32,200 nt of DNA, taken from assembly GCA_026418115.1 (NCBI GenBank), contig JAOABY010000021.1, positions 1 through 32,200 on the forward strand, read 5' to 3'. Shown here piece by piece: positions 11,643-30,391 of the stretch. Source of the DNA: Spirochaetaceae bacterium (GTDB taxonomy: Bacteria > Spirochaetota > Spirochaetia > Treponematales > Rectinemataceae). The first letter of the stretch is position 1. The number at the start of each line of letters is the position of its first letter. Both the position numbers and the translations under genes were made by a program. The notes beneath the pieces are model-generated. The model ran no database searches. It was not told the DNA's origin and worked only from the letters and a program-made list of their open reading frames with translations.

Positions 11643-11662
11643 GAAAGTTTCTCTCCAGCCAA

Positions 11663-11695
11663 CCGCGAGGGCTGTGGCGTGCACGGCCCTCGCGG
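11663..11695 (-). promoter_or_regulatory. Stem-loop between dctP and dctQ (likely attenuator or mRNA stabiliser)
   Basis: A 10-bp perfect stem (11663-11672 with 11686-11695), extended by four inner pairs including one G-T, lies in the 80-nt gap after dctP. No T-run follows on the transcribed strand. Position and form match the ugpB-ugpA stem-loop. Confidence 0.7.
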
Positions 11696-11722
11696 AGATG
11701 ATGCCGAGAATCCTCTGAAACG

Positions 11723-12694: not shown

Positions 12695-12727
12695 ACAGGA
12701 ACCTCCTTGCAATGGATCTGTCTGCAA

Positions 12728-14074: not shown

Positions 14075-14077
14075 GCT

Positions 14078-15601
14078 TCACTCACCTCCGGGCAGCACAA
14101 TCCTGACCATGGTTCCCCTCCCCTGCATCGAACTGATATTGATTGCTGCATCTGTGCCATACAGAAGATGCAGACGCAACGCCACGTTCGCCAGCCCGAT
14201 ACCCCTCCCCTCTACCAGATCGTCTGCCGACCGTGCAGCTGGTGCTGCAAGATGCGCTTTGATGGCTTCCAGCCTTTCCCGTCCCATACCCACACCATCA
14301 TCAACAACCCAGAGAGTAAGCCTGCACCCTCTTCGAACTGCCTTGAGGAGTATGGTACCGCCTTCTTCTTTTGGCTCGATGCCATGACGCACCGCATTCT
14401 CCACAAGAGGCTGCAGCAGGAGTCGTGGAATCATGGCGTTCCGTACTGTCGGTGCAATCCTGATATCCCAGCGCAGACGTGCTCCGAAACGTGCCTGCTG
14501 GAACGCCAGGTAGGATTCCGCCAGGCTGAGCTCCTCTCCGAGCGTGGACATGTTCCCGCGCTCATCAAGTGTGGCTCTGAGCAGATGCGCAAGCTTCATG
14601 ACGAGCTGTTCCGTCTCGCGGGCCTGTTCAACCAGTGCCATCCGGGCAATGGTATTCAGCGCATTGAAAAGAAAATGTGGCTTGAGCTGCTCCTGCAGGT
14701 TGAGATACTGCGCCTCGCGAAGCGCCTCGCCCATCTTTGCCAAGGCAAGTTCCTCCTCATGAAGGAGCCGTTCGAGCTCGGCCTTCTCCTTGAGACCTTC
14801 GACCAGCGTTCTGAGATTTGCAGCCATGAGAGTGAAATTGCTGGTGAGGGCCGCGACTTCATCGCGGGAGCGCACCTTGCGGATGCTGACATCGAGGTTT
14901 CCTCTGGCCAGCTCGTTCGAGACTTCTGCCAGATGGTGCAGCGGCCCGGTAATGGAGGTAGTCACAAAGAGTATTGCGGCAATAGCCAGGAGGCTGGCAA
15001 GCGCTGCTGCAAGAAAGATGGTGGTTCTGGTGCGCCGGATGCTCCGTACGAGCCGGCCATGAGTCTCCTCGCTCTGCTTCAGAAGCTCGGTCAGGAGCCG
15101 ATCAAGATAGGTTGCTATGTATCCCTGTATCCGGGTTGCATCTAGGAAGGGCTGAAAATATTCATTGCTGCCGGCTGCCCTGAGATTGACAGCCTTTGAG
15201 ACGAGAGGAAGATAGACTTCCAGCGCATAGCCGATTGCTCTCGTTTCAAAACCTGCATGTATCGAATAGTCTTCCAGAGGCCTGAGGTCCCTGTACGATG
15301 CGTGCAGAGACCCTATCGATCTATAGATGATTTCGACATTTACGGATGGTGGATCGCGGATATAGTGTTCTAGCATGCGATGGAGCGAATTGAATCCCAG
15401 ACGGAAGCGGTGCACCATGAGGAAGCGGTCAATACTGTCGCCATATTCCCTCGAAATCGTAGCAGAAGAGCCGAAAGCTGCAAGTGCTAGTCCTGCAAAA
15501 GCCAGAATGACCACAAGAAAGCAGATGAGAATCTTGGCCTGGATCCCCGGAGAGAACCTCCCGCGTGCGGTGCTTCTCTCTGATATAACCTGTTCCATCA
15601 T
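14078..15601 (-). CDS. Sensor histidine kinase (YesM/LytS type)
   Basis: A membrane sensor kinase of 507 residues: first membrane helix at about 22-44, a periplasmic domain of about 150 residues, second helix at about 194-215, HAMP linker (TGPLHHLAEVSNELARGNLD), a short coiled coil, and the His_kinase domain with phospho-acceptor His309 in LKPHFLFNALNTI. The ATPase part has LLLQPLVENAVRHGI (Asn402), DDGVGMG and RGIGLANV. It is the partner of the AraC-type regulator encoded 3 nt downstream. Its ATG overlaps the uxaE stop by 4 nt and lacks a good ribosome binding site, so it is probably translated by coupling. The periplasmic domain may sense a uronate directly or a ligand-loaded DctP, but nothing in the sequence decides between them. 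Confidence 0.9.
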   Translation of the reverse strand: MMEQVISERSTARGRFSPGIQAKILICFLVVILAFAGLALAAFGSSATISREYGDSIDRFLMVHRFRLGFNSLHRMLEHYIRDPPSVNVEIIYRSIGSLHASYRDLRPLEDYSIHAGFETRAIGYALEVYLPLVSKAVNLRAAGSNEYFQPFLDATRIQGYIATYLDRLLTELLKQSEETHGRLVRSIRRTRTTIFLAAALASLLAIAAILFVTTSITGPLHHLAEVSNELARGNLDVSIRKVRSRDEVAALTSNFTLMAANLRTLVEGLKEKAELERLLHEEELALAKMGEALREAQYLNLQEQLKPHFLFNALNTIARMALVEQARETEQLVMKLAHLLRATLDERGNMSTLGEELSLAESYLAFQQARFGARLRWDIRIAPTVRNAMIPRLLLQPLVENAVRHGIEPKEEGGTILLKAVRRGCRLTLWVVDDGVGMGRERLEAIKAHLAAPAARSADDLVEGRGIGLANVALRLHLLYGTDAAINISSMQGRGTMVRIVLPGGE

Positions 15602-16851
15602 GCAATATCAGACATCGAACCATCGAACAGCGGAATGAGGTGCCGTTCCAGCAGATTCCTGGTTACGTTGCGCTCGATTGGCTCCCTGTATCTGGCAAGC
15701 GCATCAAGGAAGGGTTGCCCCATGGCGGCAGCCATCTTGTAGCCTACATGCATGAGCTGGCGCATGGAAGGATTCATCTCAGAAGTATCAGGATCATGGC
15801 GCAGCGCCATGGCCAGCCTCTCTGAATTCCAGTGTTCTACCTCGTCCGGTGGGGGCAGGAGCCTGCTGTCAATTGAAACCACTGCCGCATATGGTGCAAC
15901 GAGCTCGTCAAGGGCTGCATGCGCCTGTCGGTAAATCTGGCGGACTATTGCAAGGCCTTCTCCTCCTGCCTCGGTGAGTCCGATGATTTCCTCAAGCCAG
16001 GTCGTACCGGCAGTCTTCAGATGCACACCTGCACCAGTACGCATGAGCACAGCATGCATGCCCTTGTACAGACTGAACTTGTCCGAGCCTGAGTGCACTG
16101 ACAGCTTGAGCCCCTCAGGCAGCTCGAACACTGTCTGGGCCCATTTCAGAATGTTGACTTCATCTTCGAAAACCCTGAGAAAGAACGACGTATCGCCAAT
16201 ATAATCCAGGCCTTTCAGGAATTTGCCGGGGAATCGTGGAGCGATGGTCGAGAGCGGAATTCCCTCAAGGGCAATCGCTGCAAGCATGCATGCCAGCTCT
16301 GCGGGGGTCTGAGGTTCGTCGGTTTCATCAACCGAAAGTTCAAGCACATAGTCACCAGAAGGTCGCGCTTCCGCAATGCGTCGATAGACTGCTGCCGCTT
16401 CCTGTATCGCACGGAGATACTTGCGGGCAGATGCTTCCACCACAGCCCTGTCCATCGGAATCGGACAGGATTCCCTGGTCAGGAGAGGAGCAGCTCGCTG
16501 GAGAAACAGCTGCATGCTCTCCGCATCAGCCTCCCTGCCTATGAAGTCTGCCACATCGATCGTGAAAAAATTGCACCAGGGGAGGAAGGCTTCCACCGTT
16601 GCCAAACCGATATGGTCGGCATCGACAAACCATGCTCCACGCCATCCGCTGGCTACGATTGCCCGCTCTGCCGCTTCGCGCTGATGCCGGGGAGTGGTGC
16701 CGATAATCTGATGCTCCCTGTTCGATTTGTTCCAGACAATGTCGGCCTCGATGCCCAGTGCCCTCAGGCGCGCGAGGGCTTCAATCTGCGCCTTGCCTTC
16801 CATGCCGAAACGATCGCCTGTGCCGATCGAAAATCTGGCCAGTTTTTTCAC
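15598..16851 (-). CDS. uxaE: Tagaturonate epimerase
   Basis: UxaE converts D-tagaturonate to D-fructuronate, joining galacturonate breakdown to the glucuronate branch; it was first recognised in Thermotoga. The 417-residue protein has the family start RFSIGTGDRFG, then FVDADHIGL, FFTIDVADFIG, ELSVDETDEPQTP, RFPGKFLKGLDYIGD, LSVHSGSDKFSLYK (residues about 250-263) and GVHLKTAGTTWLEE. The start is a GTG at 16851 with GGAGG 8 nt upstream. It is the first gene of an eight-gene minus-strand operon and is preceded by a good promoter. Its presence next to UxaC and an SDR-type mannonate oxidoreductase replaces the classic tagaturonate reductase/altronate dehydratase route. The assignment rests on recalled family motifs and strong context. 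Confidence 0.9.
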   Translation of the reverse strand: MKKLARFSIGTGDRFGMEGKAQIEALARLRALGIEADIVWNKSNREHQIIGTTPRHQREAAERAIVASGWRGAWFVDADHIGLATVEAFLPWCNFFTIDVADFIGREADAESMQLFLQRAAPLLTRESCPIPMDRAVVEASARKYLRAIQEAAAVYRRIAEARPSGDYVLELSVDETDEPQTPAELACMLAAIALEGIPLSTIAPRFPGKFLKGLDYIGDTSFFLRVFEDEVNILKWAQTVFELPEGLKLSVHSGSDKFSLYKGMHAVLMRTGAGVHLKTAGTTWLEEIIGLTEAGGEGLAIVRQIYRQAHAALDELVAPYAAVVSIDSRLLPPPDEVEHWNSERLAMALRHDPDTSEMNPSMRQLMHVGYKMAAAMGQPFLDALARYREPIERNVTRNLLERHLIPLFDGSMSDIA

Positions 16852-16877
16852 CTGCTGTTCCTCCCTGTCATGGAATC

Positions 16878-16906
16878 ACTATAATTCGAGGGTAGAGCAG
16901 GCGCAA
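16878..16906 (-). promoter_or_regulatory. Promoter of the uronate operon (uxaE onward)
   Basis: Reading the minus strand, TTGCGC (16906-16901) and TATAGT (16883-16878) are 17 bp apart. Transcription would begin about 20 nt before the uxaE GTG, just upstream of the ribosome binding site. The -10 box overlaps the TATAAT of the opposite promoter. Confidence 0.55.
16880..16885 (+). promoter_or_regulatory. Perfect -10 box of the larA-type gene promoter
   Basis: TATAAT at 16880-16885 faces the LarA-family gene, with a start of transcription expected near 16892 and a leader of about 50 nt. No good -35 box stands at 16-18 bp, which hints at dependence on an activator. It shares four base pairs with the -10 box of the uronate operon. 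Confidence 0.45.
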
Positions 16907-16930
16907 GTTTGCAGACAGCCAAGAGAAGGC

Positions 16931-16937
16931 AGGGAGG
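16931..16937 (+). promoter_or_regulatory. Shine-Dalgarno that decides the larA-type start
   Basis: AGGGAGG abuts the in-frame TTG at 16938, leaving no spacing, but lies 6 nt before the GTG at 16944. The GTG is therefore the likely start. Confidence 0.65.
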
Positions 16938-16943
16938 TTGCAG

Positions 16944-18221
16944 GTGACAGTATCATATGGCGGACAGCATGCTTTGATTGATCAGGACAAGCTGAGCAAT
17001 CTGGTTGATATGACCCTCGAGCAGGCGGGAGCATCACAGGCAAAACAGATACTTATCGTACCTCCTGATATTACCCGACTGCATTCGAGGGCGGGGCTCA
17101 TTACCGACATGCTGGTAAAGCGATGTGGCGACCGCATTGCCGCCATTCTGCCGGCGCTCGGGACGCATCAGCCCATGACGGCCGCAGAACTCGATCTCAT
17201 GTATCCGCAAAGCCCTCATACGCTCTTCCGCATCCACGACTGGCGTCATGATGTCCGCGAACTCGCACGGGTCCCGCGTGAATTTCTGGAAGACATTTCG
17301 GACCAGCGGGTATCGTACGACTATCCCGTGCAGGTCAATCGTCTGTTGCTCGAAGGAGGCCATGATCTGATCATCTCGGTCGGCCAGATCATCCCTCACG
17401 AGGTGGCAGGCATGGCGAATCATGCCAAAAATCTTCTTGTAGGCACAGGGGGCAAGGAAGCCATCGACAAGAGCCACTACCTTGGGGCTGTGTGCGGCAT
17501 GGAGCGCATCATGGGCACCATCGACAATCCGGTGCGCAGGCTCTTTGACCGGGCGCTTGCGGAAGCTCAGCAGCATCTGCCACCCGTCCTCTGGATACTC
17601 ACCGTCATCGGGCGGGATGAGAGTGGCAATCTTGTGCAGCGAGGGTATTTTGCCGGATTCGGACGACAGTGCTTTGAGGAAGCTGCTGCCCTTTCCATGG
17701 CTGTGAATATTGAGACACTGCACAGTCCCATCAAGACCGCAGTAGCCTGGCTGGATCCTTCCGAATATCGCAGTACATGGCTTGGCAACAAGGCGATATA
17801 CCGCCTCAGAATGGCCATGGCACAGGGAGGCAGGCTGATTATCCTTGCTCCGGGGCTGCAAACGTTTGGAGAAGATCCGGGCATCGACATGCTCATCAGA
17901 AAATATGGCTATCGCTCTCAGGAAGCGATGCAGGCGCTGGTATCTGCCGGAACCGAGCTGGCAGACAATCTTTCTGCTGCAGCGCACCTCATCCATGGAT
18001 CCAGCGAAGGGAAATTCCAGGTAATCTATGCAACCGGCCATGAGATGCCTGCGGAAGCCATCCGATCAGTAGGTTTTGAATGGATGGATATTCGAGAGGC
18101 TGTCGCTGCATTCCCCCCGGATCGACTCGAGCCAGGTTGGAATACCACAGCCGGCGGCGAAGAGATATTCTTTGTGCCCAACCCCGCGCTCGGGCTCTGG
18201 AAAGCAGGAAACCAGTCATGA
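16944..18221 (+). CDS. LarA-family nickel-pincer hydroxyacid racemase/epimerase
   Basis: LarA-type enzymes invert the carbon carrying the hydroxyl of 2-hydroxyacids using a nickel-pincer nucleotide bound to a Lys. All key residues of Lactobacillus LarA have counterparts with matching spacing (425-residue numbering from GTG 16944): Asp42 and Arg45 in PPDITR, His75 in GTHQPMT, His98 in IHDW, His152 in IIPHEVAG, the cofactor Lys162 in NHAKNLLVG, and His178 in DKSHYLG, followed by DNPVRRLF. The family includes lactate, malate and phenyllactate racemases and a gluconate 2-epimerase. The gene is divergent from the uronate operon and shares its promoter region, so a sugar acid such as mannonate, gluconate or altronate is a more likely substrate than lactate. 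The cofactor-making genes larB, larC and larE are not in the window. The family call is firm; the substrate is inferred. Confidence 0.85.
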   Translation: MTVSYGGQHALIDQDKLSNLVDMTLEQAGASQAKQILIVPPDITRLHSRAGLITDMLVKRCGDRIAAILPALGTHQPMTAAELDLMYPQSPHTLFRIHDWRHDVRELARVPREFLEDISDQRVSYDYPVQVNRLLLEGGHDLIISVGQIIPHEVAGMANHAKNLLVGTGGKEAIDKSHYLGAVCGMERIMGTIDNPVRRLFDRALAEAQQHLPPVLWILTVIGRDESGNLVQRGYFAGFGRQCFEEAAALSMAVNIETLHSPIKTAVAWLDPSEYRSTWLGNKAIYRLRMAMAQGGRLIILAPGLQTFGEDPGIDMLIRKYGYRSQEAMQALVSAGTELADNLSAAAHLIHGSSEGKFQVIYATGHEMPAEAIRSVGFEWMDIREAVAAFPPDRLEPGWNTTAGGEEIFFVPNPALGLWKAGNQS

Positions 18222-18248: not shown

Positions 18249-19616
18249 TCAGCCGAGCAGAAGGCGAACCTGCAGGCCGGATGCGCCATCAGGGCGCGAT
18301 CGCGCTTCCACTTTCCATCCATGGAGATCGGCGATGGCCTTGACTATGGTGAGTCCCAGACCGTGTCCGCTTTCCTGGCGTGAGTGGCTCCCTCTATAGA
18401 ATGCATCAAAAATAAAGGGCAGGTCTGATGGCGGTACACCGGGCCCGTTATCAGTGACGCTGATCACAAGCCCCCCCTCCTCTCGCGCGCACGCAAGTTC
18501 GATCAGTCCATCAGGACCTGTATACCTGAAAGAATTCGAAATAAGATTCTCGATGGCGCGTTCTGCCAGAAGGCGATTCATGACGACTCTGCGGGCAGAT
18601 TGTGCATCAGGATGAGCCAACTCGGGTGCGATGGTGCACACAAACCGCTTGCCGAGCAGCCGCGCATCTTCATCGAAGCGCCTGCCAAGCGCAAGCATGA
18701 AAGTGCCGATATCGGTTTCTTCCATTGCATCACTGTGTTCACCGATTTTCATGAACTCGATGAGGTCACTGACCAGATCCTCGAGCTGTCCCGCCTTATC
18801 CCTGATGATACGGATGTATCGCAGACGGGTTTCCTCATCGGCATCCAGATTGTCGGCAAGGGCATCCGCATACCCCTGGATAAGGGCAATAGGTGTCTTG
18901 AGGTCATGGCTGACACCGATCAGCATATTCATGCGCCGCGTGATCATGTCACGCAGGGCAATCCTCATGTGATTGATGCGCGCAGCGAGCGATCTCATTT
19001 CTACGCTGCCTGTGCCTGTGACTTCATGATCAAGTCTGCCGGCAGCAACAATGGCAGTATCTTCCTCCAGTTTTCGAATTGCCTTGCCCGTGGACCGCAC
19101 AATAAGCAGAGAGATGACGCCTGCTATGATAAAAATTCCCAGCGCAAAACTCGCCACAAGAACGAAGCTTCGATATCGTACATCCTGCTTGGTCCAGAAG
19201 GGCTGCACATCGAAGAGCAGCAGGGGGCTTCTATCCATGGTCTCGTCTACCGGGAGGAGTCTCAGTTCCGGTCTTGGCTTGCCGGGCATCATGAGAGGAG
19301 GTTTGACAAAATCTACAAACTGCATGGTCGTGCCTGCGGGCAAATCCCTGAAGGAAGACAGCAGCACGACTCCATCCGGGGCAATGAGCGCAGCATCCAG
19401 CACAGGGAGGCCGGAAGCCTCACCTGCACGCTTGATATCATCGATAGAAAGGCTGCCACGTTCCTTCATGATGCCTGCAACAGTCTCTATGAACCTTCTG
19501 GTGGGGATACGGGGATCCCTTGGCATGGATTGCCCTGAGAAATACAGCAGACTGAACAGCAGAGGGAAGAGTGTGACCGCTGCCGTGAGAATTGCGAACT
19601 GGGTTCTGAGCCTCAT
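18249..19616 (-). CDS. Sensor histidine kinase (EnvZ/HAMP/HisKA type)
   Basis: A 455-residue membrane kinase: helix 1 at about 8-27, a periplasmic domain to about 149, helix 2 at about 150-172, HAMP, then HisKA with phospho-acceptor His237 in GVSHDLKTPIALIQGYADAL and a HATPase_c domain (ERAIENLISNSFRYT, DNGPGVPP, GHGLGLTIVKAIADLHG). It overlaps the response regulator stop by 4 nt and is the last gene of the trans-envelope operon, ending 28 nt from the convergent LarA-type gene with no clear terminator between. The periplasmic region is about 120 residues and not recognisable. Because its gene closes an operon for envelope transport, it may sense outer-membrane or periplasmic stress or the transported lipid. 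Confidence 0.9.
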   Translation of the reverse strand: MRLRTQFAILTAAVTLFPLLFSLLYFSGQSMPRDPRIPTRRFIETVAGIMKERGSLSIDDIKRAGEASGLPVLDAALIAPDGVVLLSSFRDLPAGTTMQFVDFVKPPLMMPGKPRPELRLLPVDETMDRSPLLLFDVQPFWTKQDVRYRSFVLVASFALGIFIIAGVISLLIVRSTGKAIRKLEEDTAIVAAGRLDHEVTGTGSVEMRSLAARINHMRIALRDMITRRMNMLIGVSHDLKTPIALIQGYADALADNLDADEETRLRYIRIIRDKAGQLEDLVSDLIEFMKIGEHSDAMEETDIGTFMLALGRRFDEDARLLGKRFVCTIAPELAHPDAQSARRVVMNRLLAERAIENLISNSFRYTGPDGLIELACAREEGGLVISVTDNGPGVPPSDLPFIFDAFYRGSHSRQESGHGLGLTIVKAIADLHGWKVEARSRPDGASGLQVRLLLG

Positions 19617-20320
19617 GACGCTTCCCTGGAGAGCGCCTCGGGATTGAATCTATATCCGAGGCCATACTGTGTCTGAATGTAGTAGGGGCTTGAAGGATTG
19701 TCCTCAATCTTCTTGCGCAGGCGTTGTATGTAGACACCCACAGCGCTGATATCACCATAATCCTGCCCCCAGACCAGGTGGTACAGCTCTTCTGGCGTGA
19801 AAGGCTTGCCGGCATGCAGTATCAGCGTTTTCAGAAGGCCAAACTCTCGAGCTGAAAGGTTGACAGGCTGCCCTTCTCTGGTGAGATACATACCTTCAAC
19901 ATCGAGTTCGAAAGGGCCGAATTTTACCAGCGCCCCGCCGTTTCTCGCCTTGAGGCTTTCGACACGCCTGATATGGGCCCGCACCCTTGCTGCAAGCACT
20001 TTGGGTGGGCATGGCTTGACGACGAAATCATCCGCACCCACCCCCAGACCGAATATGATATCCTCATCTGCCTCACGTGCAGTAAGGATCATGACAGGTG
20101 TTGGCTTGTGTTTTCGCAACTGTTCCAGAAACTGGAATCCATCCATGCCCGGCAGATTCAGATCGAGAATGATGAGATCCCAGTCCTCCTCCAGAGCTGC
20201 AGGGAGAGCTGACTCCGCATCATGACGCAGCGTGCATACGAATCCTTCATTACGAAGGTACATGGCGTAGAGCTCCGCAAGCTCCACAGTGTCTTCAATA
20301 ATCAGAATTCTGCCTTGCAT
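19613..20320 (-). CDS. OmpR-family response regulator
   Basis: This 235-residue regulator has a receiver domain (acidic pocket Glu9/Asp10, phospho-acceptor Asp53 in LIILDLNLPGMDG, Thr80, Lys102 in DDFVVKP) and a C-terminal winged helix (LSAREFGLLKTLILHAGKPF, then VYIQRLRKKIEDNPSSP and QTQYGLGYRF). The start at ATG 20320 is preferred because GGAG lies 6 nt before it; an upstream TTG at 20332 would add four residues. It begins 17 nt after the beta-barrel gene and overlaps the kinase gene by 4 nt, so it is part of the same transcript. It probably controls the operon that contains it or wider envelope genes. Confidence 0.92.
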   Translation of the reverse strand: MQGRILIIEDTVELAELYAMYLRNEGFVCTLRHDAESALPAALEEDWDLIILDLNLPGMDGFQFLEQLRKHKPTPVMILTAREADEDIIFGLGVGADDFVVKPCPPKVLAARVRAHIRRVESLKARNGGALVKFGPFELDVEGMYLTREGQPVNLSAREFGLLKTLILHAGKPFTPEELYHLVWGQDYGDISAVGVYIQRLRKKIEDNPSSPYYIQTQYGLGYRFNPEALSREAS

Positions 20321-20337
20321 GACCAACTCCAACCATT

Positions 20338-21915
20338 TCAGAATGATACTGCATTCCAGTACAGGCTGAACTCCACCGACACCTTGCGGATGGAATAATC
20401 ATCCTGCAGCAGCATCGGAACGGAAGCACTCAGGCTTACCGTATCCCGGATACTGAGGGAGAGGGAAGGCGTAATCTTGTTGCCCTGAGGCGCATATTCG
20501 GAAAGCTTTGGTCCGAGTGCGGTGAGGGAGGAGGCCGTCAGGCTCATCTTGCCTCCTTCATCGCCCATCTGTACCTGCACCTTGGGATTGAACCTCATGG
20601 AACCATCGGAAAAGCTGGCAATGCCATAGCCCGAGAGACTGAGCACGGTGTAGGTCTTCCCTTCACCGAACCGCTGCGACACCGAGCCCTGACCCGCGAG
20701 ATACCACATGCCAGGCTGAGACACGTCCCTCGAATAGTTGGCACTGTCGGACCTGAGCTGCTGCCGGGCCGCGGTATTGAGCAGAATGCGGGCATCGGCA
20801 TAGCCGGTACCATTGTAGTACCCCTGCAGATTGAGGGAAAGGGAGAAGCCCTGCGAGGTGCTTTTCGAATACTTGAAGCCAAGCGTCGATTGCAGGAAGA
20901 CACGATCATCAGGTCGGTAGGTCACATAGCTGCCTGGAGTATCTCCCTGTTTCACAAAGGTCCTGTCTGCTCCCCAGAGCAGAACCTGCTCACCGTACAC
21001 ATCGATGGAGCCAATCGCTCCTGTGAAGGTGAACATGGCCCGCGGGCTCACCTGCATGTCTGTCCTTCCGAATCCTGCAAAACTCAGCTCCCAGCCACCA
21101 ACAACCCAGTCGTACCGTCCGGCTGCAGAGAAGGCACCTGCATTCCCTGACAGCGGCGGCACGAGATACAGCATGGCATGGTTGAGTCCGATCGGCAGAT
21201 CTGCCTTGAAGGCAAAAGGCCCTTCCCTCGAGGCTGCAGGATCATCAGGATCTATAGCAGCGAGACTCAGCACATCGGATGGTTTGAACCAGGTACCCAC
21301 ACCCCAGCTTATCCGCTGCTTGCCAAGCCGGAAAAAGACTTTCTTGCCAATTTCGGTATCTACGAACAGTTCATCCAGAAGTATGGTGGGTGAGGTATAC
21401 TGCTCTCCCTCCGGGTCGTACCTGAACTGTACGGAAGCTCTGAATCGTTTAAAATCAGACACTCGCAGATCCGCACTTGCATCGATCGACGCAGATGCAA
21501 TGCCTGACGGCAGGGCGAGGAGCGAGGTCTCCGCCTGGAAGTGTATATTCTTGACGGGCAGAAAATCCAGTGAAAGTCCGCTGATGTTCACCCCGCCGAC
21601 AAGGTACTGACGATCCTGTGCAGTAGCTCCGAAGGGAACATATCTCCCCTGCAGGCCTGCACCTACCGTGCCATCGAGAAGAAACACGGGATAGGTCTTG
21701 GTGTCCTGTACCAGCTGGATGACGCCGGTAGAGGCAGCCTTTTCATCAATGACGGTGACGATATCCTTTTCTCCGCCGAAGAGAGCCTGCTCGTCGATGA
21801 CTGCCGGAGGGGCCTGCGCAAAGGCTCCCGCGGCTGCGAGCATCAGCCAGAGAATGGAAAAAGCGCGGATCATGGCTTTAGAGCTGAGCTGTCCTGATGT
21901 GATGCTGATTTCCAT
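20338..21915 (-). CDS. Outer-membrane beta-barrel protein of a trans-envelope operon
   Basis: A 525-residue protein with a long signal peptide (hydrophobic core at about 17-33, cleavage near AFA-Q34), amphipathic beta strands throughout and a C-terminal Phe (LYWNAVSF), the usual end of barrels inserted by the BAM machinery. The segment FRLGKQRISWGVGTWFKPSDVLS resembles the GRQ..SWG...NP.D motif of DUF1302-like outer-membrane proteins, which are found beside LolA-like proteins and RND or ABC transporters. The ATG at 21915 has AGGAGAG 7 nt upstream; an internal ATG (21873) would give a shorter signal peptide but has a weaker site. It lies 11 nt after the LolA-like gene. A role as the outer-membrane end of a lipid or lipoprotein path is an inference; it could also be a plain porin. 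Confidence 0.75.
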   Translation of the reverse strand: MEISITSGQLSSKAMIRAFSILWLMLAAAGAFAQAPPAVIDEQALFGGEKDIVTVIDEKAASTGVIQLVQDTKTYPVFLLDGTVGAGLQGRYVPFGATAQDRQYLVGGVNISGLSLDFLPVKNIHFQAETSLLALPSGIASASIDASADLRVSDFKRFRASVQFRYDPEGEQYTSPTILLDELFVDTEIGKKVFFRLGKQRISWGVGTWFKPSDVLSLAAIDPDDPAASREGPFAFKADLPIGLNHAMLYLVPPLSGNAGAFSAAGRYDWVVGGWELSFAGFGRTDMQVSPRAMFTFTGAIGSIDVYGEQVLLWGADRTFVKQGDTPGSYVTYRPDDRVFLQSTLGFKYSKSTSQGFSLSLNLQGYYNGTGYADARILLNTAARQQLRSDSANYSRDVSQPGMWYLAGQGSVSQRFGEGKTYTVLSLSGYGIASFSDGSMRFNPKVQVQMGDEGGKMSLTASSLTALGPKLSEYAPQGNKITPSLSLSIRDTVSLSASVPMLLQDDYSIRKVSVEFSLYWNAVSF

Positions 21916-21926
21916 GATCGTCTCTC

Positions 21927-22850
21927 CTACTGGCTCATCCGCTCAAGATATTCCTTGGTGAATATGTAATCGGGCACGGGCTGTGTCGAGATATTGGTAT
22001 AGGTAACCTGGGAACGCTTCTCCGGAATCAGACCATCCTGAAAAATCTGCACCGTAGGGACATAGGAATCGCCAATCTGCACATATTCCGTATAGTAGGC
22101 CGTCCTGAGCAGTTTGCCCGACAGGCTGAACTCCTCCACCTTGAGGACGATCATTCTCTGTTTTTCGATGTACATCCGGATGCGGGGGAACGGTACCTCA
22201 TCATTGTTGGCTTTGAGCTCTCCGATGATCACATCATACTTGCCGAGTTTGCCGGTGGTGAGGGATTCAACAGTGTAGTCCAGCGAGCGCTGCCATCGCC
22301 GGAAATCATTGTTCCTCACGGTGGAGTTCTCATAGGTATCTTTGAGGGTAGTGTGGGTGAATTTTCTGCTCGTAGGATCATAGCGCCACATGTTGTTGCT
22401 CACCCGGAGCATGCCCTGCCCCTTACGGGACTCCGGCTCCAGCGTGATCATGAGAAAGGCATCATCTTTATCACGTCTGTATATCTGTTCCTTGCGGACA
22501 AAGGTGCCCCTGTCCGGACTCACGCTGACGGTCGTTATGGTGGCGGTCATGTCTGATTTGTAGAAGCTCGATCGTATATCAGTCCGTCGTACCAGCATGA
22601 GAAAGTCAAGACCAGTGAATTTGCTGATATCATCAGGAAACTTGTAGTCCTTGAGGCTCTCCATAAATCCCGGTGGAAGCCCCCCTCCCTGCGGCGGGGT
22701 GCCGGCTGGAGGTGTTCCTGCCGGAGGAGTTCCCTGCGCCCTGGCAGCAAACACCAGCACCGCCGCGAAGAGAATCAGACTCACTTTGCCTGCCAGGCTG
22801 GAGTGCGCACCGAATCTTCTGATTGCCACGCCATCGCCTTTTATTGTCAT
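21927..22850 (-). CDS. LolA-like periplasmic outer-membrane lipoprotein-sorting protein
   Basis: This 307-residue exported protein has a signal peptide (hydrophobic core at about 22-37, cleavage after ARA38), a short low-complexity stretch with GTPPA repeats, and a LolA-like half-barrel: YKSDMTATITTVS, KEQIYRRDKDDAFLMITLEPESRKGQGML, NNMWRYDPTSRKFTHTT, YIEKQRMIVLKVEEFSLSGKLLRTAYY. This matches the family of LolA-like proteins that stand next to LolCDE- or MMPL-type transporters and carry a lipid or lipoprotein across the periplasm. AAGGAG stands 6 nt before ATG 22850. It is encoded between the two permeases and the beta-barrel, which orders the proteins from inner to outer membrane. The cargo cannot be read from sequence. 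Confidence 0.85.
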   Translation of the reverse strand: MTIKGDGVAIRRFGAHSSLAGKVSLILFAAVLVFAARAQGTPPAGTPPAGTPPQGGGLPPGFMESLKDYKFPDDISKFTGLDFLMLVRRTDIRSSFYKSDMTATITTVSVSPDRGTFVRKEQIYRRDKDDAFLMITLEPESRKGQGMLRVSNNMWRYDPTSRKFTHTTLKDTYENSTVRNNDFRRWQRSLDYTVESLTTGKLGKYDVIIGELKANNDEVPFPRIRMYIEKQRMIVLKVEEFSLSGKLLRTAYYTEYVQIGDSYVPTVQIFQDGLIPEKRSQVTYTNISTQPVPDYIFTKEYLERMSQ

Positions 22851-22869
22851 GTCATGCTCCTTTCCTGTT

Positions 22870-24141
22870 TCATGCCGTCACGCGCAGCGCATCAGCCGGC
22901 GCTATGGCAGCTGCGCGCCGTGCCGGCATGACTACCGTCAATATTGCAGCTATCGTCACACACACCAGTACTATCAGCATCTGCACAAGAGAAGGCATGA
23001 AGAGCAGATGCCCCTTCACGAGTGCGGCACCGAAATCACCATGAGGATCAAAAGGAATGAGAGAAAGCAGCAGGCCAAGAGGGATGCTTGCCACAATGCC
23101 GGCAAGGGCAGCACCTCCCGCCAGCAGCACGCCTTCCGATAGAAACGATGCAAACACATCCTTCTTCTTGAAACCGATGCACCGCAACATGCCGATTTCC
23201 CGTGTCCTCTCGAGCAACACCATCCGGAATGAATTTGCAATGCCCGTTGCGCATACCGCCAGCATCAGCGCAAATACGGCATATCCAATCCACCTGATTG
23301 CGCCAAGCGCAGACCCCACTTCTCCTGCAAGCTCCTGTACCGTAGCAATCCTGTACGAAACGCTGCCTGCAACGGCTCCAGTTCTAGATTGTCCATCCAG
23401 TTTCAGCCCCTGGCGCTCCATCGCACGCTTCAGAATGGACGCTCCAGATGGCGCCTGTGCTCCATCCCCAAGGAATACCGCTACCGACTGCCATTCATGT
23501 TCCTTCATGTTGAGATCGGCCCGCAGATCCTCTGCGCGAACGAATGCGGCATGGAGACCGCCCGCCGCAGTTTCGTCATAGATTGCGACCACCCTGTACT
23601 CGGTAACATTCTGCTGTCCCGATGCCGTAGACATGCGAACCAGCACCTCATCGCCCAGCGCCAGACCAAATCGTTTCACCGACTGCGCACTGAGCACCAT
23701 CGGTCGCGAGATTGCTGCGCTGTCCCAATTCCCTTCCTTCAGGATAAGTATGGTGCGATAGAGCTGATCCTCTTTCCAGTCGATACCGCGTACCGTCATC
23801 TGAAGTTCGCGACTGCCAAAGACCATGGTAGCCCGAGTCTGCACCAGTGTGGTTGCCGACCTTACATCCGGCACCACCTGCCGCACCAGGTCGAGTACCT
23901 CACTTCCCGAAGCCCGGTTCTGGGATCTGCCGGACCAGCTGACCGTATAGCCCGATATCTGCACATGCCCGCCGGCATACAGCGTGACATTGTTCTGTAC
24001 CGCTGCATCCATGCCGTTGACAAACCCTGCGATAAGGCTCATTACAAGCGCGCTGAATGCAACCGCTCCCCCCAGCGCGAGTGTCCGGTGAGGCTGTCGT
24101 CCAAGGTTGCGTGCCGCAAGCCGTATATGCATGTTCTGCAT
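22870..24141 (-). CDS. FtsX/LolCE-type ABC permease (second of pair)
   Basis: A 423-residue permease of the MacB/LolE class: helix 1 near residues 18-40 (LALGGAVAFSALVMSLIAGF), a large periplasmic domain (about 45-280), and three C-terminal helices with the FtsX core (EIGMLRCIGFKKKDVFASFLSEGVLLAGGA) ending PARRAAAIAPADALRV. It pairs with the permease encoded just upstream and with the LolD-like ATPase to move a lipid or lipoprotein out of the inner membrane, or to work as a mechanotransmitter. Three ATG codons stand in a row (24147, 24144, 24141); a GGGGAG is 1, 4 and 7 nt before them, so the third is preferred. The first overlaps the upstream stop as ATGA, which is an alternative. Confidence 0.9.
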   Translation of the reverse strand: MQNMHIRLAARNLGRQPHRTLALGGAVAFSALVMSLIAGFVNGMDAAVQNNVTLYAGGHVQISGYTVSWSGRSQNRASGSEVLDLVRQVVPDVRSATTLVQTRATMVFGSRELQMTVRGIDWKEDQLYRTILILKEGNWDSAAISRPMVLSAQSVKRFGLALGDEVLVRMSTASGQQNVTEYRVVAIYDETAAGGLHAAFVRAEDLRADLNMKEHEWQSVAVFLGDGAQAPSGASILKRAMERQGLKLDGQSRTGAVAGSVSYRIATVQELAGEVGSALGAIRWIGYAVFALMLAVCATGIANSFRMVLLERTREIGMLRCIGFKKKDVFASFLSEGVLLAGGAALAGIVASIPLGLLLSLIPFDPHGDFGAALVKGHLLFMPSLVQMLIVLVCVTIAAILTVVMPARRAAAIAPADALRVTA

Positions 24142-24143
24142 CA

Positions 24144-25604
24144 TCATTCTCCCCGCATTGCAACCACAGGCTCGATCCTCAGGGCAAGCATCACCGGGTA
24201 CAGCGACGTGCCCAGACTCATGACCAGTATCCATGCGAAGGCTCTGAGCGCTGCTCCCAGCGTTACAACGGGCCTGAGTACCCTGCCGCCAAAGAGCGCT
24301 TCAAAAAACAGCGACGGCGCGCGTACCCCCACTTTGCCGAGCACCAGCAGCAGGATCAGGCCAACCAGAAGCCCTGCCGCCCCTGCCAGCACCGCAAGAA
24401 AGGTTGTCTCAAGGAGTATCATCCTCCGCACAACTCTCCGTTTTGCACCGATTGCTCGGAGTGTACCGATTTCATACAGACGCTCGTTGAGGGAAATCAC
24501 CAGCACATTCATCATGATAGCCACCACAACGACGGCGACCACTGCCACCAGCGCATCGAATACAAGCCTGATCGTCTGCGCAGTACGAGCCACCTTTCCC
24601 GCGCCCTGGATCCAGTCCTGTACTCGATCTCCATCGCCGATACTGGCAGCAACCTTGGCAAGCTCTTTCTGCAGGGACTTTGTGTTCGCGCCAGGAACCA
24701 TGCGGATCAGCAGAAACTGCCAGGCAGGTTCGGCAGCAGGCAGCGAGGATGCCGCCTGTTTCTCTCCAGCGCTGCTCGCCGCCGTCTGGTCCGATGCATG
24801 CGCTTTTTGCTGGTCCTGTTCTGCGAACAATGAGTCGAACAGCGTATCAGGATCGAAAGACTGCACGAACGCTGCCTCCCTGCCTGTCAGCACAGGCGGT
24901 CCATCCCGGAGACTTGCAAACCCCAGCAGATCGCGCAGCACATCGGCATCCGTAAGCGAAACACCAGCCAGCTGCTCGTTGCTCTGGTTGAAGCGCACAA
25001 TACCCTGCACCTTCACCTCCCGGATCACGGTGCCAGCCCCTTCTGCAAGCGCAGTCATAATGATGGTACTGCCCGGTCCCAGCAGGGAACCGCTCTGCTG
25101 CTGCAGCATGGTTCTCATGCGCTCCGAGAGCAGTACCCATCCATGCGAGCCTTCTTCCGGCCAGGCTCCTTCCACGATGCTCACATTGCCGCTGAAGAAT
25201 GCTCTGTAGGCTTCGCTTTCGACGCCAAAGCAGACTCCCGACCCCAGCTCCGTCTCACCCATCCCGAAGGAAATCTTTCCGCTCAGCATGGGCAGTGTGG
25301 CACGCACATCCTTTCTGCCCGCGAGAAATGTCTGATACTGACTGATTTTCGCGATATGAGGAAGCACCTCTTCACTTCCGGCCGTCTCTCCCAGCACGGT
25401 GACGGGAAAATCCGTAGGACCCGTCACCATCAGATCACCTGTAAAGCCTTCAATGAACATGCTTCTCAATCCACTGATGGTGGTATCGATCATCGAATTC
25501 CCCACAAACAGGAGAAAGATGCCGATACCCATGATTGAGGCTATGAGCGCCGATTTGGCTTTGTGGAGGCCGAGATTCCCCCATGCCAGGCGTGCTGCAA
25601 TCAT
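24144..25604 (-). CDS. FtsX/LolCE-type ABC permease (first of pair)
   Basis: The 486-residue protein has the same build as its neighbour: helix 1 at about 17-38 (SALIASIMGIGIFLLFVGNSM), a periplasmic domain of about 300 residues, and a C-terminal three-helix FtsX core (ISLNERLYEIGTLRAIGAKRRVVRRMILLETTFLAVLAG) ending MLALRIEPVVAMRGE. The periplasmic domain contains an Ala/Ser/Gln-rich low-complexity insert at about residues 266-290 (FAEQDQQKAHASDQTAASSA) that is absent from the partner. The ATG overlaps the stop of the ATPase gene by 4 nt. Two different permeases with one ATPase recall LolC/LolE with LolD, and the LolA-like gene downstream agrees. Substrate unknown. Confidence 0.9.
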   Translation of the reverse strand: MIAARLAWGNLGLHKAKSALIASIMGIGIFLLFVGNSMIDTTISGLRSMFIEGFTGDLMVTGPTDFPVTVLGETAGSEEVLPHIAKISQYQTFLAGRKDVRATLPMLSGKISFGMGETELGSGVCFGVESEAYRAFFSGNVSIVEGAWPEEGSHGWVLLSERMRTMLQQQSGSLLGPGSTIIMTALAEGAGTVIREVKVQGIVRFNQSNEQLAGVSLTDADVLRDLLGFASLRDGPPVLTGREAAFVQSFDPDTLFDSLFAEQDQQKAHASDQTAASSAGEKQAASSLPAAEPAWQFLLIRMVPGANTKSLQKELAKVAASIGDGDRVQDWIQGAGKVARTAQTIRLVFDALVAVVAVVVVAIMMNVLVISLNERLYEIGTLRAIGAKRRVVRRMILLETTFLAVLAGAAGLLVGLILLLVLGKVGVRAPSLFFEALFGGRVLRPVVTLGAALRAFAWILVMSLGTSLYPVMLALRIEPVVAMRGE

Positions 25605-26380
25605 GAGCCATGCCTCCCTGTGAGTCTCAGGCTGCTCTGCAACGCCATGCCTTCCATGCCTGCAGCATCCATCACCATGGACTTTCTTCTGTTTTCCACA
25701 ATACGGCCATCTCTGAGCCTGATGACATGATCTGCCTCATGCTCGATATCCGGATCATGGGTACTGAAAATGAAGGTAGTGCCAAAGGTTTCGTTCATGT
25801 GCCGCATGAGGCGCAGGATGCTCTCGCCTGTTGCAGAATCGAGATTGGCAGTCGGCTCATCCGCGAGTACAAGCGCCGGTTTCATGACCAGCGCTCGAGC
25901 GATCGCCACCCTCTGTCGCTGACCTCCTGAGAGTTCGGCTGGCCGGTGACGCATGCGGTCGGCTAGTCCGACATTCTCTATCAGAAAATCGACCCATTCC
26001 CGACGCTGTCGCCGCTCCTCCTCTCCGATGTTCGTATCGAGCATGAGCGGAAGCTCGACATTCTCCCTGATATTCAACACAGGGATAAGATTGAAGGTCT
26101 GAAAGATGAACCCGATGGCATGATGCCGCAATTCCGTCAGCTCATCATCATTCAGCTCTGAAGTACGTCTGCCGAGTACGGTCACGATGCCCGAACTCGG
26201 CTTGTCCACGCATCCGATAAGGTTGAGTATGGTCGTCTTCCCCGATCCCGAAGGACCTGCGATGGTCACAAAATCGCCCGCCTGAATCTCCAGGCTGACT
26301 TCCTTCAATGCCTCTACCTGCACTTCATCCAGACGGTATGCCTTGCCGACTCTGTCAAGCGCTACGATTGTTTCTGCCAT
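25601..26380 (-). CDS. LolD/MacB-type ABC transporter ATPase
   Basis: This 259-residue ATPase drives the two FtsX-type permeases encoded after it. Motifs in order: Walker A GPSGSGKTT (42-50), Q-loop FIFQTFNLIPVLNIRENVELPL, signature LSGGQRQ (150-156), Walker B LVLADEP (170-176) followed by TANLDS, and the switch His in FIFSTHDP. The FNLIP..ENVELP sequence is characteristic of the LolD/MacB branch. It has about 25 extra residues at the C-terminus after the usual RLRDGRIV. It is the first gene of a minus-strand operon and overlaps the next gene by 4 nt. It is named by family; whether it serves canonical lipoprotein export or a specialised cargo is open. Confidence 0.93.
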   Translation of the reverse strand: MAETIVALDRVGKAYRLDEVQVEALKEVSLEIQAGDFVTIAGPSGSGKTTILNLIGCVDKPSSGIVTVLGRRTSELNDDELTELRHHAIGFIFQTFNLIPVLNIRENVELPLMLDTNIGEEERRQRREWVDFLIENVGLADRMRHRPAELSGGQRQRVAIARALVMKPALVLADEPTANLDSATGESILRLMRHMNETFGTTFIFSTHDPDIEHEADHVIRLRDGRIVENRRKSMVMDAAGMEGMALQSSLRLTGRHGS

Positions 26381-26536
26381 GATATCCCTTTATCTGTATG
26401 CTACAGGCAAAGAGTATCGCACGCTGACTTTTCATGCCATAAAAATGTAGTGAAACCTTTATGAATGAAAATAACGGCATCCGCTGCCATGGAGAAGTAG
26501 CAAGAATATTGCTGTTTCTGTATACTTGCAGCCATC
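26381..26536. promoter_or_regulatory. Divergent promoter region of the trans-envelope and quinone operons
   Basis: This 156-bp spacer is clearly richer in A+T than the genes around it. Toward ubiD it holds TATACT at 26521-26526, with a weak TAGCAA 17 bp before it (26498-26503). Toward the ATPase gene the best -10 candidate is GATACT on the minus strand (26418-26413), without a convincing -35 box. AAGGG stands a few nt before the ATPase ATG. No clear operator palindrome was found. Confidence 0.5.
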
Positions 26537-27988
26537 ATGGCATATCAGGGATTGCAGGAATTTCTCGCACGACTCGAGGCAGCGGGCGAGCTCGTACGCA
26601 TCCGGACGGAAGTCGATCCGATACTTGAGATTACCGAAATTGCCGACAGAGTCATGCGAAAAGGTGGCCCGGCTCTGCTCTTCGAAAAGGTGAGGGGGTC
26701 GGAATGGCCGCTCATCATCAATGCCTATGGCTCGGAACGCCGCATGGCATGGGCACTGGGAGCCGAGAGCCTGGATGAAAAGGCAGCCGCAATTTCTGAG
26801 CTGCTGGCCTGGGGCTGGTCACAGCTCAGAGACTTTTCACTGCTCAGTACCCTGCCCTCCGCGCTTCCCAAAATTCCCCTTGCCCGGGCCCTCCTCCCGA
26901 AGAAGGTGCGCCACGCTCCCTGCCGCGAGGTGGTGGATCCCCGGGGCTTCGACAGCCTTCCCATACTGCAGTGCTGGCCGGACGATGGTGGTCGATTTCT
27001 GACGCTTCCTGTGGTGTGTACCATAGACCCTGAAACAGGTGCCCAGAACTGGGGCATGTACCGGATGCAGGTGTATGACGACCGCACCGCAGGCATGCAC
27101 TGGCACATCCACAAGGATGGCGCTCATTTCTTTGCAAAATATAGCAAGGCTGGACGGCGCATGCCGGTGGTGATAGCGCTCGGTGGCGACCCTGCAGTCA
27201 CCTACGCCTCGACAGCCCCGCTCCCTGAAGGCATCTGGGAAGCAATGTTTGCAGGATTCCTGCGGGGCAAACCTGCCGAAGTCGTCTCCATCGGTGATAC
27301 CGGTATCCTGGCTCCGGCCGATGCCGAATTCATTCTAGAAGGATACGTTGATCCGGGAGAGATGCGGATGGAAGGACCTTTCGGCGATCATACCGGCTTC
27401 TATTCGCTTCCGGATCTCTACCCGGTGTTCCATCTTGAGCGCATCACGCGGAGGCGACAGCCTGTCTATCCTGCCACCATCGTAGGAATTCCTCCCAAAG
27501 AGGACTGCTATCTGGCCAAGGCGACCGAACGGCTTTTCCTGCCTTTGCTCCGCCAGCTCTGCCCTGAAATTACCGATCTCTCCATGCCGCTGGAGGGTGT
27601 GTTCCACAACTGCGTACTTGTCTCGATCCGCAAGCGTTACCCAGGTCAGGCACGGAAAGTCATGCATTTCCTCTGGGGCATGGGGCAACTGATGTACACC
27701 AAGCTCATTGTGGTGGTCGATGACGATATCGAGCTCAGCGATCTCTCCATGGTGGCCTGGCGCGTTTTCAATAACATTGATGCATCCCGCGATCTGGTGT
27801 TCTCGGATGGCCCGCTCGATGCGCTCGATCATTCTTCTCCCCGCCCCCGTTTTGGCACCAGACTGGGCATCGATGCCACCAGAAAGCTGCCTGAGGAAGG
27901 ACATGACCGGGAGTGGCCCGAGCCACTGCGCATGCGCAAGGATGTTGTGGAACTGGTCGACCGCAGGTGGAAGGAATATGGCATCTGA
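26537..27988 (+). CDS. UbiD-family decarboxylase (menaquinone, futalosine pathway candidate)
   Basis: UbiD enzymes remove a carboxyl group from aromatic or unsaturated acids using prenylated FMN made by UbiX. The 483-residue protein has the canonical start (AYQGLQEFLARLEAAGELVRI), NWGMYRMQVYDDRTAGMHWHIHKDGAHFF for cofactor and metal binding, ALGGDPAVTYASTAPLPEG, the active-site region EGPFGDHTGFY, and VVVDDDIELSDLSMVAWRVFNNID. The following UbiA- and UbiX-type genes point to late quinone synthesis, and the UbiA protein looks like the futalosine-pathway MqnP, which would make this protein MqnL-like. It has no Shine-Dalgarno; a TATACT box ends 10 nt before the ATG, suggesting a leaderless transcript. 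The next gene overlaps by 11 nt. Confidence 0.9.
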   Translation: MAYQGLQEFLARLEAAGELVRIRTEVDPILEITEIADRVMRKGGPALLFEKVRGSEWPLIINAYGSERRMAWALGAESLDEKAAAISELLAWGWSQLRDFSLLSTLPSALPKIPLARALLPKKVRHAPCREVVDPRGFDSLPILQCWPDDGGRFLTLPVVCTIDPETGAQNWGMYRMQVYDDRTAGMHWHIHKDGAHFFAKYSKAGRRMPVVIALGGDPAVTYASTAPLPEGIWEAMFAGFLRGKPAEVVSIGDTGILAPADAEFILEGYVDPGEMRMEGPFGDHTGFYSLPDLYPVFHLERITRRRQPVYPATIVGIPPKEDCYLAKATERLFLPLLRQLCPEITDLSMPLEGVFHNCVLVSIRKRYPGQARKVMHFLWGMGQLMYTKLIVVVDDDIELSDLSMVAWRVFNNIDASRDLVFSDGPLDALDHSSPRPRFGTRLGIDATRKLPEEGHDREWPEPLRMRKDVVELVDRRWKEYGI

Positions 27989-28856
27989 ACGGCAGAGTCT
28001 CTGGAGTCGTCTGCGTATGCTGGGCGATTCCGTGATGATCACCCATACGCTCTTTTCTCTCCCCTTTGCGGTGAGTGCCGTGCTGCTGGAAACAGCAGGC
28101 AGGCCGCCCGCCAACAAGGTGTTCTGGATTGTGCTGGCGGCATTCGGGGCGAGAAATGGCGCCAATGCCTTGAACCGGATCATCGACCGAGACATCGATG
28201 CGCGAAACCCCCGCACCGCTGACCGCCATCTGCCACAAGGCACACTCACGGTGCGTGAGCTCTGGCTTTTTGCAGCAGGCATGCTGGCGCTGCTGGTGCT
28301 TGCCGCCGCCATGCTCAATCCGCTCTGCGTTGCCCTCCTCCCGGTGGCAGGAATCCTCGTGTTTGGATATTCCTATACCAAACGTTTTACCTGGCTCTGC
28401 CACTACTGGCTGGGTGTCGCATGTTCGGCAGCGGTCATGGGTGCGTTTCTGGGCATCTCCGGGGCGTTCGCATGGCGTTATTTCCCGCTCACCGGCGGTG
28501 TGGCGCTCTGGGGTGCAGGATTCGATATCCTCTATGCCCTGCAGGACATCGAGTTCGACAGAAAGGAAGGATTGCATTCGATTCCTGCCCGGTTCGGCGA
28601 AACCGGAGCAAGAATCATCGCCGCATTGAGCCATCTCGGTGCACTCGCAGGCATGGGAAGTGTCTTTCTGTTCTGGCCTGCTCCTGGTCTCTTTCTCGGC
28701 ATCGCGCTTGCAGCGTGTGCCATACTGCTCGTTCTGGAACATGTTGTATCGCTGCGCGCTACCAGTCACCGCATCAAGATAGCTGCGTATACCATGAACC
28801 AGATCATTCCTCTTGTCTATCTTTGCGGTGTTGCGCTTGATATCTACGTTGGATAG
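27978..28856 (+). CDS. UbiA-family polyprenyltransferase (MqnP-like)
   Basis: This 292-residue membrane enzyme attaches a polyprenyl chain to an aromatic acid. It has about eight membrane helices and both Asp-rich motifs: NRIIDRDIDARNPRTADRHLP (Asp70, Asp74) and LQDIEFDRKEGLHSIPARFG. The NPRTADR sequence and length match the UbiA-like prenyltransferases of futalosine menaquinone producers and 4-hydroxybenzoate prenyltransferases. The start at ATG 27978 lies inside the end of ubiD (11-nt overlap), with AAGGA 3 nt and AGGTGG 9 nt before it; the longer open frame upstream is out of frame with ubiD coding and unlikely to be real. The order decarboxylase-prenyltransferase-flavin prenyltransferase forms one pathway unit. 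Confidence 0.9.
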   Translation: MASERQSLWSRLRMLGDSVMITHTLFSLPFAVSAVLLETAGRPPANKVFWIVLAAFGARNGANALNRIIDRDIDARNPRTADRHLPQGTLTVRELWLFAAGMLALLVLAAAMLNPLCVALLPVAGILVFGYSYTKRFTWLCHYWLGVACSAAVMGAFLGISGAFAWRYFPLTGGVALWGAGFDILYALQDIEFDRKEGLHSIPARFGETGARIIAALSHLGALAGMGSVFLFWPAPGLFLGIALAACAILLVLEHVVSLRATSHRIKIAAYTMNQIIPLVYLCGVALDIYVG

Positions 28857-28865
28857 AATGAAATC

Positions 28866-29459
28866 ATGGCGATGCGTGTTCTGGTGTGCATCACGGGCGC
28901 TTCGGGAGCCCTGTATCCTCTGCGCCTGATTGCGGCGCTCACCGCACGGGGAGTCGCGCTCCATGTGATCGCCACGCCATGGGGAGGGCGAGTCATACTT
29001 GAAGAAACCGCACGTCCCCTGGGATACTGGCTCAACAGGCTCAGATACCATGGCGGGCCGGGAGGAAGCGCTGCGCTGGTGACTCTGCATGCCAGCGATG
29101 ATTTTTCGTCGCCACTTGCTTCCGGATCCTTCAGGCTGTCGGGTACTGTCGTAGCACCATGCTCGATGGGTACCATGGGCGCGCTTGCCAGCGGGACCTG
29201 CACGACACTTGTTCACAGAGCTGGCGCCGTTGCGCTCAAGGAAGGCTGGCCGCTCATTCTGGTACCGAGAGAAGCTCCGCTGTCCCTTATTGCACTGCGC
29301 TCCATGACCACGCTGAAAGAAGCGGGGGCAGTCATCATGCCGGCTTCTCCGAGTTTCTACAGCAGGCCAGCAACCATTGAGGCACTTGTTGATACCGTGG
29401 TGCACCGGGTGCTCGACCATCTCGGACTGGAAGCGCCTACTACTTCCCGATGGAGCTGA
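28866..29459 (+). CDS. ubiX: UbiX-family flavin prenyltransferase
   Basis: UbiX makes the prenylated FMN cofactor needed by UbiD. The 197-residue protein shows the family motifs: CITGASGALYPLRL at the N-terminus (FMN phosphate loop), VVAPCSMGTMGALASGT in the middle, and LILVPREAPLS for prenyl phosphate binding, followed by an Arg/Ser-rich closing helix. It starts 9 nt after the prenyltransferase gene without a strong ribosome binding site; ATG 28872 is a possible alternative two codons on. It serves as the cofactor partner of the UbiD enzyme encoded first in this operon. Confidence 0.95.
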   Translation: MAMRVLVCITGASGALYPLRLIAALTARGVALHVIATPWGGRVILEETARPLGYWLNRLRYHGGPGGSAALVTLHASDDFSSPLASGSFRLSGTVVAPCSMGTMGALASGTCTTLVHRAGAVALKEGWPLILVPREAPLSLIALRSMTTLKEAGAVIMPASPSFYSRPATIEALVDTVVHRVLDHLGLEAPTTSRWS

Positions 29460-29464
29460 TACCA

Positions 29465-30382: not shown

Positions 30383-30391
30383 ACGGAAACC

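Follow-up and report, generated by a model that had tools for sequence, protein, structure and literature searches.

The question raised by the 32,200 nucleotide stretch of Spirochaetaceae bacterium DNA analysed here (contig JAOABY010000021.1 of assembly GCA_026418115.1, referred to below as the window) is what a Lol-like pump does when its genes are found together with those of a periplasmic carrier, an outer-membrane barrel and a two-component system. The minus-strand block at positions 18249–26380 consists of seven open reading frames, which in gene order encode a LolD/MacB-type ATP-binding cassette (ABC) ATPase, two FtsX-type permeases, a LolA-like carrier, a beta-barrel, a response regulator and a sensor histidine kinase (Table 1). 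A preliminary description of this DNA had proposed a seven-gene unit with these domains and tight spacing, and this is confirmed by the open reading frame coordinates, which are unchanged, by Pfam matches and by the gene junctions. The layout is not due to chance: of 55 loci whose surroundings are fully covered, 51 have this five-gene order from ATPase to barrel. Permease 1 and the barrel share a short acidic motif, and we lean towards a dedicated export conveyor, in which a Lol-like pump would feed a carrier that would recognise one and the same tag on its inner-membrane and its outer-membrane docking partner, the barrel taking the place of LolB.

The motif, D-[E/x]-[D/E]-x-L-F-G, is seen in alignments of an insertion in permease 1 and of the periplasmic N-terminus of the barrel. 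Two patterns were used. The looser pattern finds the motif in 60 of 67 permease insertions, where composition-preserving shuffles give a mean of 5.2 and a maximum of 13, and the stricter pattern finds it in 71 of 77 barrel N-termini (shuffles: mean 9.3, maximum 17); the other pattern gives 49/67 and 67/77, respectively. Other segments of the same permeases and barrels are mostly negative, the motif being rare there. A separate phylum-wide sample searched with a looser pattern shows the motif in 34 of 35 permeases and 33 of 35 barrels. Barrels too divergent for a sequence query are still tagged, e.g. FDSLFSEAED in locus L116 and IDSIFNKD in L117. Position-by-position consensus profiles of the permease and barrel motifs are nearly alike, and motif similarity is higher within than between loci (p = 0.0012, 31 divergent loci), in a test where lineage-wide composition effects remain. 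No description of the shared tag was found in the open-access literature, subscription papers being outside the search. Locus L083 displays several tandem D-x-x-[LM]-F copies of the tag in both the permease 1 tether and the barrel tail.

A paralogous subfamily of 20 loci, typified by contig C71 of the same genome, is alike in gene order and kinds of protein, with permeases that carry no insertion. Its barrels begin without an acidic N-terminal tag, with one partial exception (L231, EEFDPDAFFAP). The carriers follow the same division. When 88 carriers from motif-bearing systems are compared with 21 from systems without the motif, conservation is 100% vs 0% at D100, 92% vs 0% at R125, 98% vs 29% at R126, 93% vs 0% at D127, 100% vs 0% at G146, 92% vs 10% at R162 and 97% vs 0% at F164. 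R125 and R126 are situated at the end of strand beta2 in the carrier model. An arginine on the beta2-beta3 loop is described as a hallmark of LolA, and the surface that surrounds the opening of Porphyromonas gingivalis LolA3 is positive (PMC13103446). The modelled arginine positions, together with the LolA3 surface, would be consistent with docking of an acidic tag near the carrier mouth; they fit such docking and do not prove it. The tag as a docking site is suggested because the motif is present on both pump and barrel, is nearly absent from both paralogous proteins and is tracked by carrier residues.

The conservation of the unit was followed in 80 loci from GTDB genomes, fetched with a 7-row carrier alignment. 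The preliminary description had proposed a check for conservation of the block across Spirochaetota, and the core is conserved across genomes: besides the core order given above, the barrel is found behind the carrier in 70 of 72 loci. The unit is conserved in free-living spirochaetes, and its cores occur widely, in spirochaetes from many kinds of habitat. The set reaches metagenome-assembled genomes (MAGs) of Bacillota (Limnochordia and others) and one Oceanospirillaceae MAG. In the latter (L196) the ABC genes run divergently to those for carrier and barrel, and the tags are kept in both permease (SDDSLFA) and barrel (DDASLFG). Ten MAGs labelled Bacillota, Clostridia, Limnochordia or Peptococcaceae (L149, L151, L161, L163, L166, L168, L169, L171, L172 and L177) contain the set, barrel and tags included, an argument that these lineages possess an outer membrane unless the contigs are misbinned. 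In three loci the reading frames apparently join regulator and kinase (L123), barrel and regulator (L131) or permease 2 and carrier (L198); these are real fusions or lost stops.

The unit had been proposed to be distinct from a housekeeping Lol system, and the rest of the genome bears this out. The assembly (2.17 Mb in 141 contigs, about 96% complete; the window is its contig C55) contains eight FtsX domains as four pairs, and four PF17131 proteins. The layout of ABC, FtsX, FtsX, carrier and barrel is found in three sets: in the window, on C50 (with its barrel on C117) and on C71. A 77-bp contig overlap inside the barrel gene joins C50 and C117 into a second complete set split by the assembly, and the mature N-terminus of its barrel is QEGGSLDDLFSDE. 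The fourth FtsX pair, on C89, belongs to a LolE-LolD-LolC-like set without carrier or barrel, and adjoins ftsY, prfB and recA (names taken from translations). The C89 set scores 245 bits with the LolD model and 188 and 170 bits with LolC/E. For the window ATPase the best NCBIfam models are LolD (TIGR02211, 225 bits, cut-off 307.75) and MacB, and the window permeases score 66.9 (permease 2) and 42 bits with the LolC/E equivalog TIGR02212 (cut-off 362.45); both sets fall below the equivalog cut-offs. The reading of the window set as housekeeping Lol is rejected, since another set that is closer to LolCE/LolD is present. A classical LolA (PF03548) is found on contig C62. LolB was not detected in the genome, at the completeness given above. 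The second, housekeeping-like lolCDE set for which the preliminary description had asked is therefore present, and the case in which its proposal would fall, a sole lolCDE set and a barrel without conserved linkage, does not apply here. Contig C75 also carries a cluster of MMPL-type pump, DUF1302-like barrel and the fourth PF17131 protein of the genome as carrier (L016:5051-9709), from which the shared tag is absent.

Of 60 loci where the question is decidable, 27 have the regulator-kinase pair behind the barrel. Those with a place on a tree built from carrier plus permeases all belong to a single supported clade of 44 rows, and the other clade contains none of them. Presence of the pair takes a minimum of 5 changes on this tree, vs a minimum of 13 and a mean of 19.5 after shuffling, and Mantel comparison with transporter distances gives r = 0.86 for the regulator and r = 0.83 for the kinase (p ≤ 0.0005). 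Within the family a single clade has the pair, which co-evolves with the transporter. A first phylum sample, with few cases, gave the impression that the pair was accidental; the larger set of loci and the tree contradict this. Of the two additions once held to set the unit apart from Lol, the barrel stands as part of the conserved core and the sensor pair does not stand as a general feature. The kinase displays two transmembrane (TM) segments with a variable periplasmic domain of about 115–120 aa between them. Permease-mediated sensing as in Bce modules is not suggested, because the kinase has a periplasmic domain of its own; a Bce-type detoxification module was rejected on this feature and on the presence of two permeases.

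The FtsX domain and the large domain after TM1 make the permeases type VII ABC permeases. Permease 1 shows hydrophobic segments at residues 15–43, 341–377, 394–434 and 442–477, and it matches solved LolF, LolE and MacB permeases. It keeps a hairpin at the position of the LolC Hook, the element that recruits LolA in Escherichia coli and whose sequence is poorly conserved (PMC10865981). The tag itself was considered as the Hook and rejected, as it is situated in the insertion, past the part of permease 1 that aligns to LolF residue 216.

The carrier consists of a signal peptide, a Pro-rich linker and the carrier domain. Its match to PF17131 (124.3 bits, cut-off 30) and its LolA-type fold place it in that family; classical LolA (PF03548) gives no match to the window carrier, which matches PF17131 only. 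The AlphaFold2 model has a predicted local distance difference test score (pLDDT) of 93. Its structural matches are 3buu (TM-score 0.82–0.85), 9tp6, 3bk5 and 4z48, of which 3buu and 9tp6 are the best. The nearest named genome is that of Rectinema subterraneum, with a carrier 80% identical to that of the window.

The barrel gives a confident AlphaFold2 beta-barrel (pLDDT 88, predicted TM-score 0.79), in which residues 33–73 form a low-confidence tail bearing the motif, followed by a porin-like barrel. The best structural matches are maltoporin/OprD-type porins, with Z of 15–16 and 4.6–5 Å over about 280 residues. Such a porin-like arrangement is common and says nothing about function. No Omp85 or LptD-like structure leads the structural comparison, and this non-appearance does not exclude a barrel of either type. 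No significant Pfam match is found for the barrel, DUF1302 (PF06980) being sub-threshold at 17.5 bits vs a cut-off of 23.2.

Table 1. Features of the seven-gene block and its upstream region (window coordinates)
Feature	Position	Strand	Basis or remark
TTCA repeats 11 bp apart, kept in close orthologues, upstream of ATPase gene	26437..26477	-	alignment
LolD/MacB-type ABC ATPase, 259 aa	25601..26380	-	Pfam ABC_tran, 113 bits
FtsX-type permease 1, 486 aa, large periplasmic domain between TM1 and TM2	24144..25604	-	Pfam FtsX
Low-complexity insertion in permease 1 periplasmic domain, residues 224-294	24723..24935	-	not in solved LolF; profile-to-LolF alignment breaks here
Permease 1 motif DPDTLFD, residues 251-257	24834..24854	-	F256 invariant in 19 rows
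FtsX-type permease 2	22870..24147 (open reading frame opens 24234)	-	Pfam FtsX; start choice inferred
LolA-like periplasmic carrier	21927..22850	-	PF17131
Carrier R125-R126-D127, beta2-beta3 turn	22470..22478	-	characteristic of motif-bearing systems
Outer-membrane beta-barrel, 525 aa, porin-like	20338..21915	-	AlphaFold2 model
Barrel motif DEQALFG, residues 41-47, just after signal peptide	21775..21795	-	F46 invariant in 40 rows
OmpR/PhoB-type response regulator	19613..20332	-	Response_reg + Trans_reg_C
Sensor histidine kinase	18249..19616	-	HAMP + HisKA + HATPase

The junctions, in gene order, measure −4, a nominal −91, 19, 11, 5 and −4 nt. We think that the real start of permease 2 is Met30, which would turn the −91 overlap into a 4-nt ATGA overlap with permease 1. 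The repeat block upstream of the ATPase gene is a candidate promoter or regulator site. A promoter scan showed nothing beyond chance.

Several known systems share parts of this layout. In E. coli, LolA is recruited by the permease and LolB is the outer-membrane receptor. The LolCDE-LolA-LolB system is alike in its LolD-like ATPase, two FtsX permeases with large periplasmic domains and LolA-fold carrier. Unlike it, the window unit has a PF17131 rather than a PF03548 carrier, a barrel apparently in place of LolB, a tagged permease 1 insertion beyond the Hook position and a dedicated two-component system, and its genome holds a separate housekeeping-like set as well. LolA3 of P. gingivalis (9tp6), a close structural match of the window carrier from a different phylum, does not pair with LolB (PMC13103446). 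The nearest published unit is Borrelia BBJ23-BBJ29, where a MacB/Lol-like ABC, a LolA-like carrier and a barrel are also found in one spirochaete cluster. That unit has an Omp85/BamA-type barrel, two tetratricopeptide repeat (TPR) proteins and one permease gene, for which a homodimer is proposed, and its proposed cargo is lipoprotein or other non-polar material (PMC13078400). It carries no two-component system; in turn, Pfam finds no TPR gene among the seven genes of the window unit, whose barrel best matches porins. AmeABCD of Castellaniella defragrans, which confers monoterpene tolerance, consists of an HAE3-type resistance-nodulation-division (RND) pump, a DUF1329 carrier, a DUF1302 barrel and an extra AmeC (PMC6394551). 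It is alike in combining a LolA-superfamily periplasmic protein and a DUF1302-type barrel with an inner-membrane pump, whereas the window unit has an ABC pump and a DUF1302 match that is only sub-threshold. AmeABCD is thus an example of a carrier and barrel that work with a different kind of pump in the efflux of hydrophobes. MacAB-TolC shares the type VII ABC permease fold, but the window unit has a carrier and a barrel instead of a continuous tube; a pump of this type was rejected, as both a MacA-type adaptor and a TolC-type channel are absent from the seven genes by Pfam. No account of a unit of ABC, carrier and porin-like barrel was found in the open-access literature searched.

In the proposed conveyor the ATPase and the two FtsX permeases would form a type VII (LolCDE/MacB-like) machine, which would lift an amphiphilic cargo (lipid, lipoprotein or other hydrophobe) from the inner membrane and load the LolA-like carrier. 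The flexible permease 1 tether with its D-x-D-x-L-F-G tag would recruit the carrier, which would then diffuse across the periplasm, dock on the same tag in the N-terminal tail of the barrel and hand over its cargo. The barrel would be the receptor, the role of LolB in E. coli. In the clade of the window, the OmpR-type regulator and the kinase would tune expression to an envelope signal. We infer tag-carrier binding, the direction of transport, the kind of cargo and autoregulation. A two-ended address code, in which one motif on pump tether and barrel tail would be read by the same carrier site and allow a LolB-free hand-off, is quite conceivable and is put forward more tentatively than the conveyor itself.

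Several observations weigh against the conveyor with its shared docking tag. The two tags of the window are not very similar outside the D..LF core. Most of the contrast between tagged and untagged carriers reflects a single evolutionary split, and inside the tagged group the tags are normal even where R125 or R162 of the carrier is altered. The carrier could be recruited by the Hook-position hairpin of permease 1, leaving the tag to bind a different partner. The barrel could be merely a co-regulated porin, and no neighbouring gene indicates the cargo.

Other explanations were considered. The unit could be an ATP-driven counterpart of AmeABCD that expels small, toxic hydrophobic compounds, with a kinase that senses the compound; the weak DUF1302 signal and porin-like fold of the barrel and the monoterpene tolerance given by AmeABCD (PMC6394551) would agree with this, as would the MMPL, LolA-like and barrel set of the same genome. 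Cores that are widespread in spirochaetes of many habitats speak against it. LolA-like folds also usually carry acyl chains, and on balance efflux seems unlikely. A little less probable again is a conveyor in which the motif binds not the carrier but a third periplasmic factor linking permease and barrel, for example a scaffold or chaperone. The position of the motif in flexible parts of two different proteins would suit a bridging adaptor, and with a hairpin at the Hook position carrier loading could be a separate matter; yet among the families tested the block shows no further conserved gene, nearly every locus has the carrier gene between those of permease and barrel, and carrier residues track the motif.

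Export of surface lipoproteins, by a second Lol route that would use the barrel to flip or thread selected lipoproteins to the cell exterior, draws on the LolCDE-like pump, the LolA-like carrier and the cargo proposed for Borrelia BBJ23-29 (PMC13078400). We consider it improbable, slightly more so than the third factor: PF17131 carriers stand outside classical LolA, whose PF03548 model does not match the window carrier, no lipoprotein gene is seen fixed in the block, and the barrel is porin-like by fold. That a general porin and an ABC transporter are ordinary neighbours merely sharing a promoter is strongly disfavoured. The barrel fold does match general and substrate-specific porins, but the gene order is kept in 51/55 loci, other phyla included, and the motif is shared.

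The flanking genes of the window appear to belong to other pathways. At 26537–31990 are found a UbiD-type decarboxylase, a UbiX-like flavoprotein, an NMT1-type binding protein and a fused ABC importer, perhaps a cluster for aromatic-acid uptake and decarboxylation. The region 9721–18221 contains tripartite ATP-independent periplasmic (TRAP) transporter genes, an AraC-type response regulator with a sensor kinase, a tagaturonate-epimerase-like gene and a lactate-racemase-like gene, and is probably a sugar-acid utilisation cluster.

It is still not settled by what feature a shuttle for lipids or lipoproteins finds its receptor in the outer membrane of bacteria that have no LolB, and the tag shared by permease 1 and barrel is a possible answer. 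If it is the answer, it would provide a sequence signature by which conveyors can be found and paired in any genome and told apart from look-alike paralogues of the same gene order. The address code, if true, would be used widely in spirochaetes, in some Bacillota and in at least one gammaproteobacterial genome.

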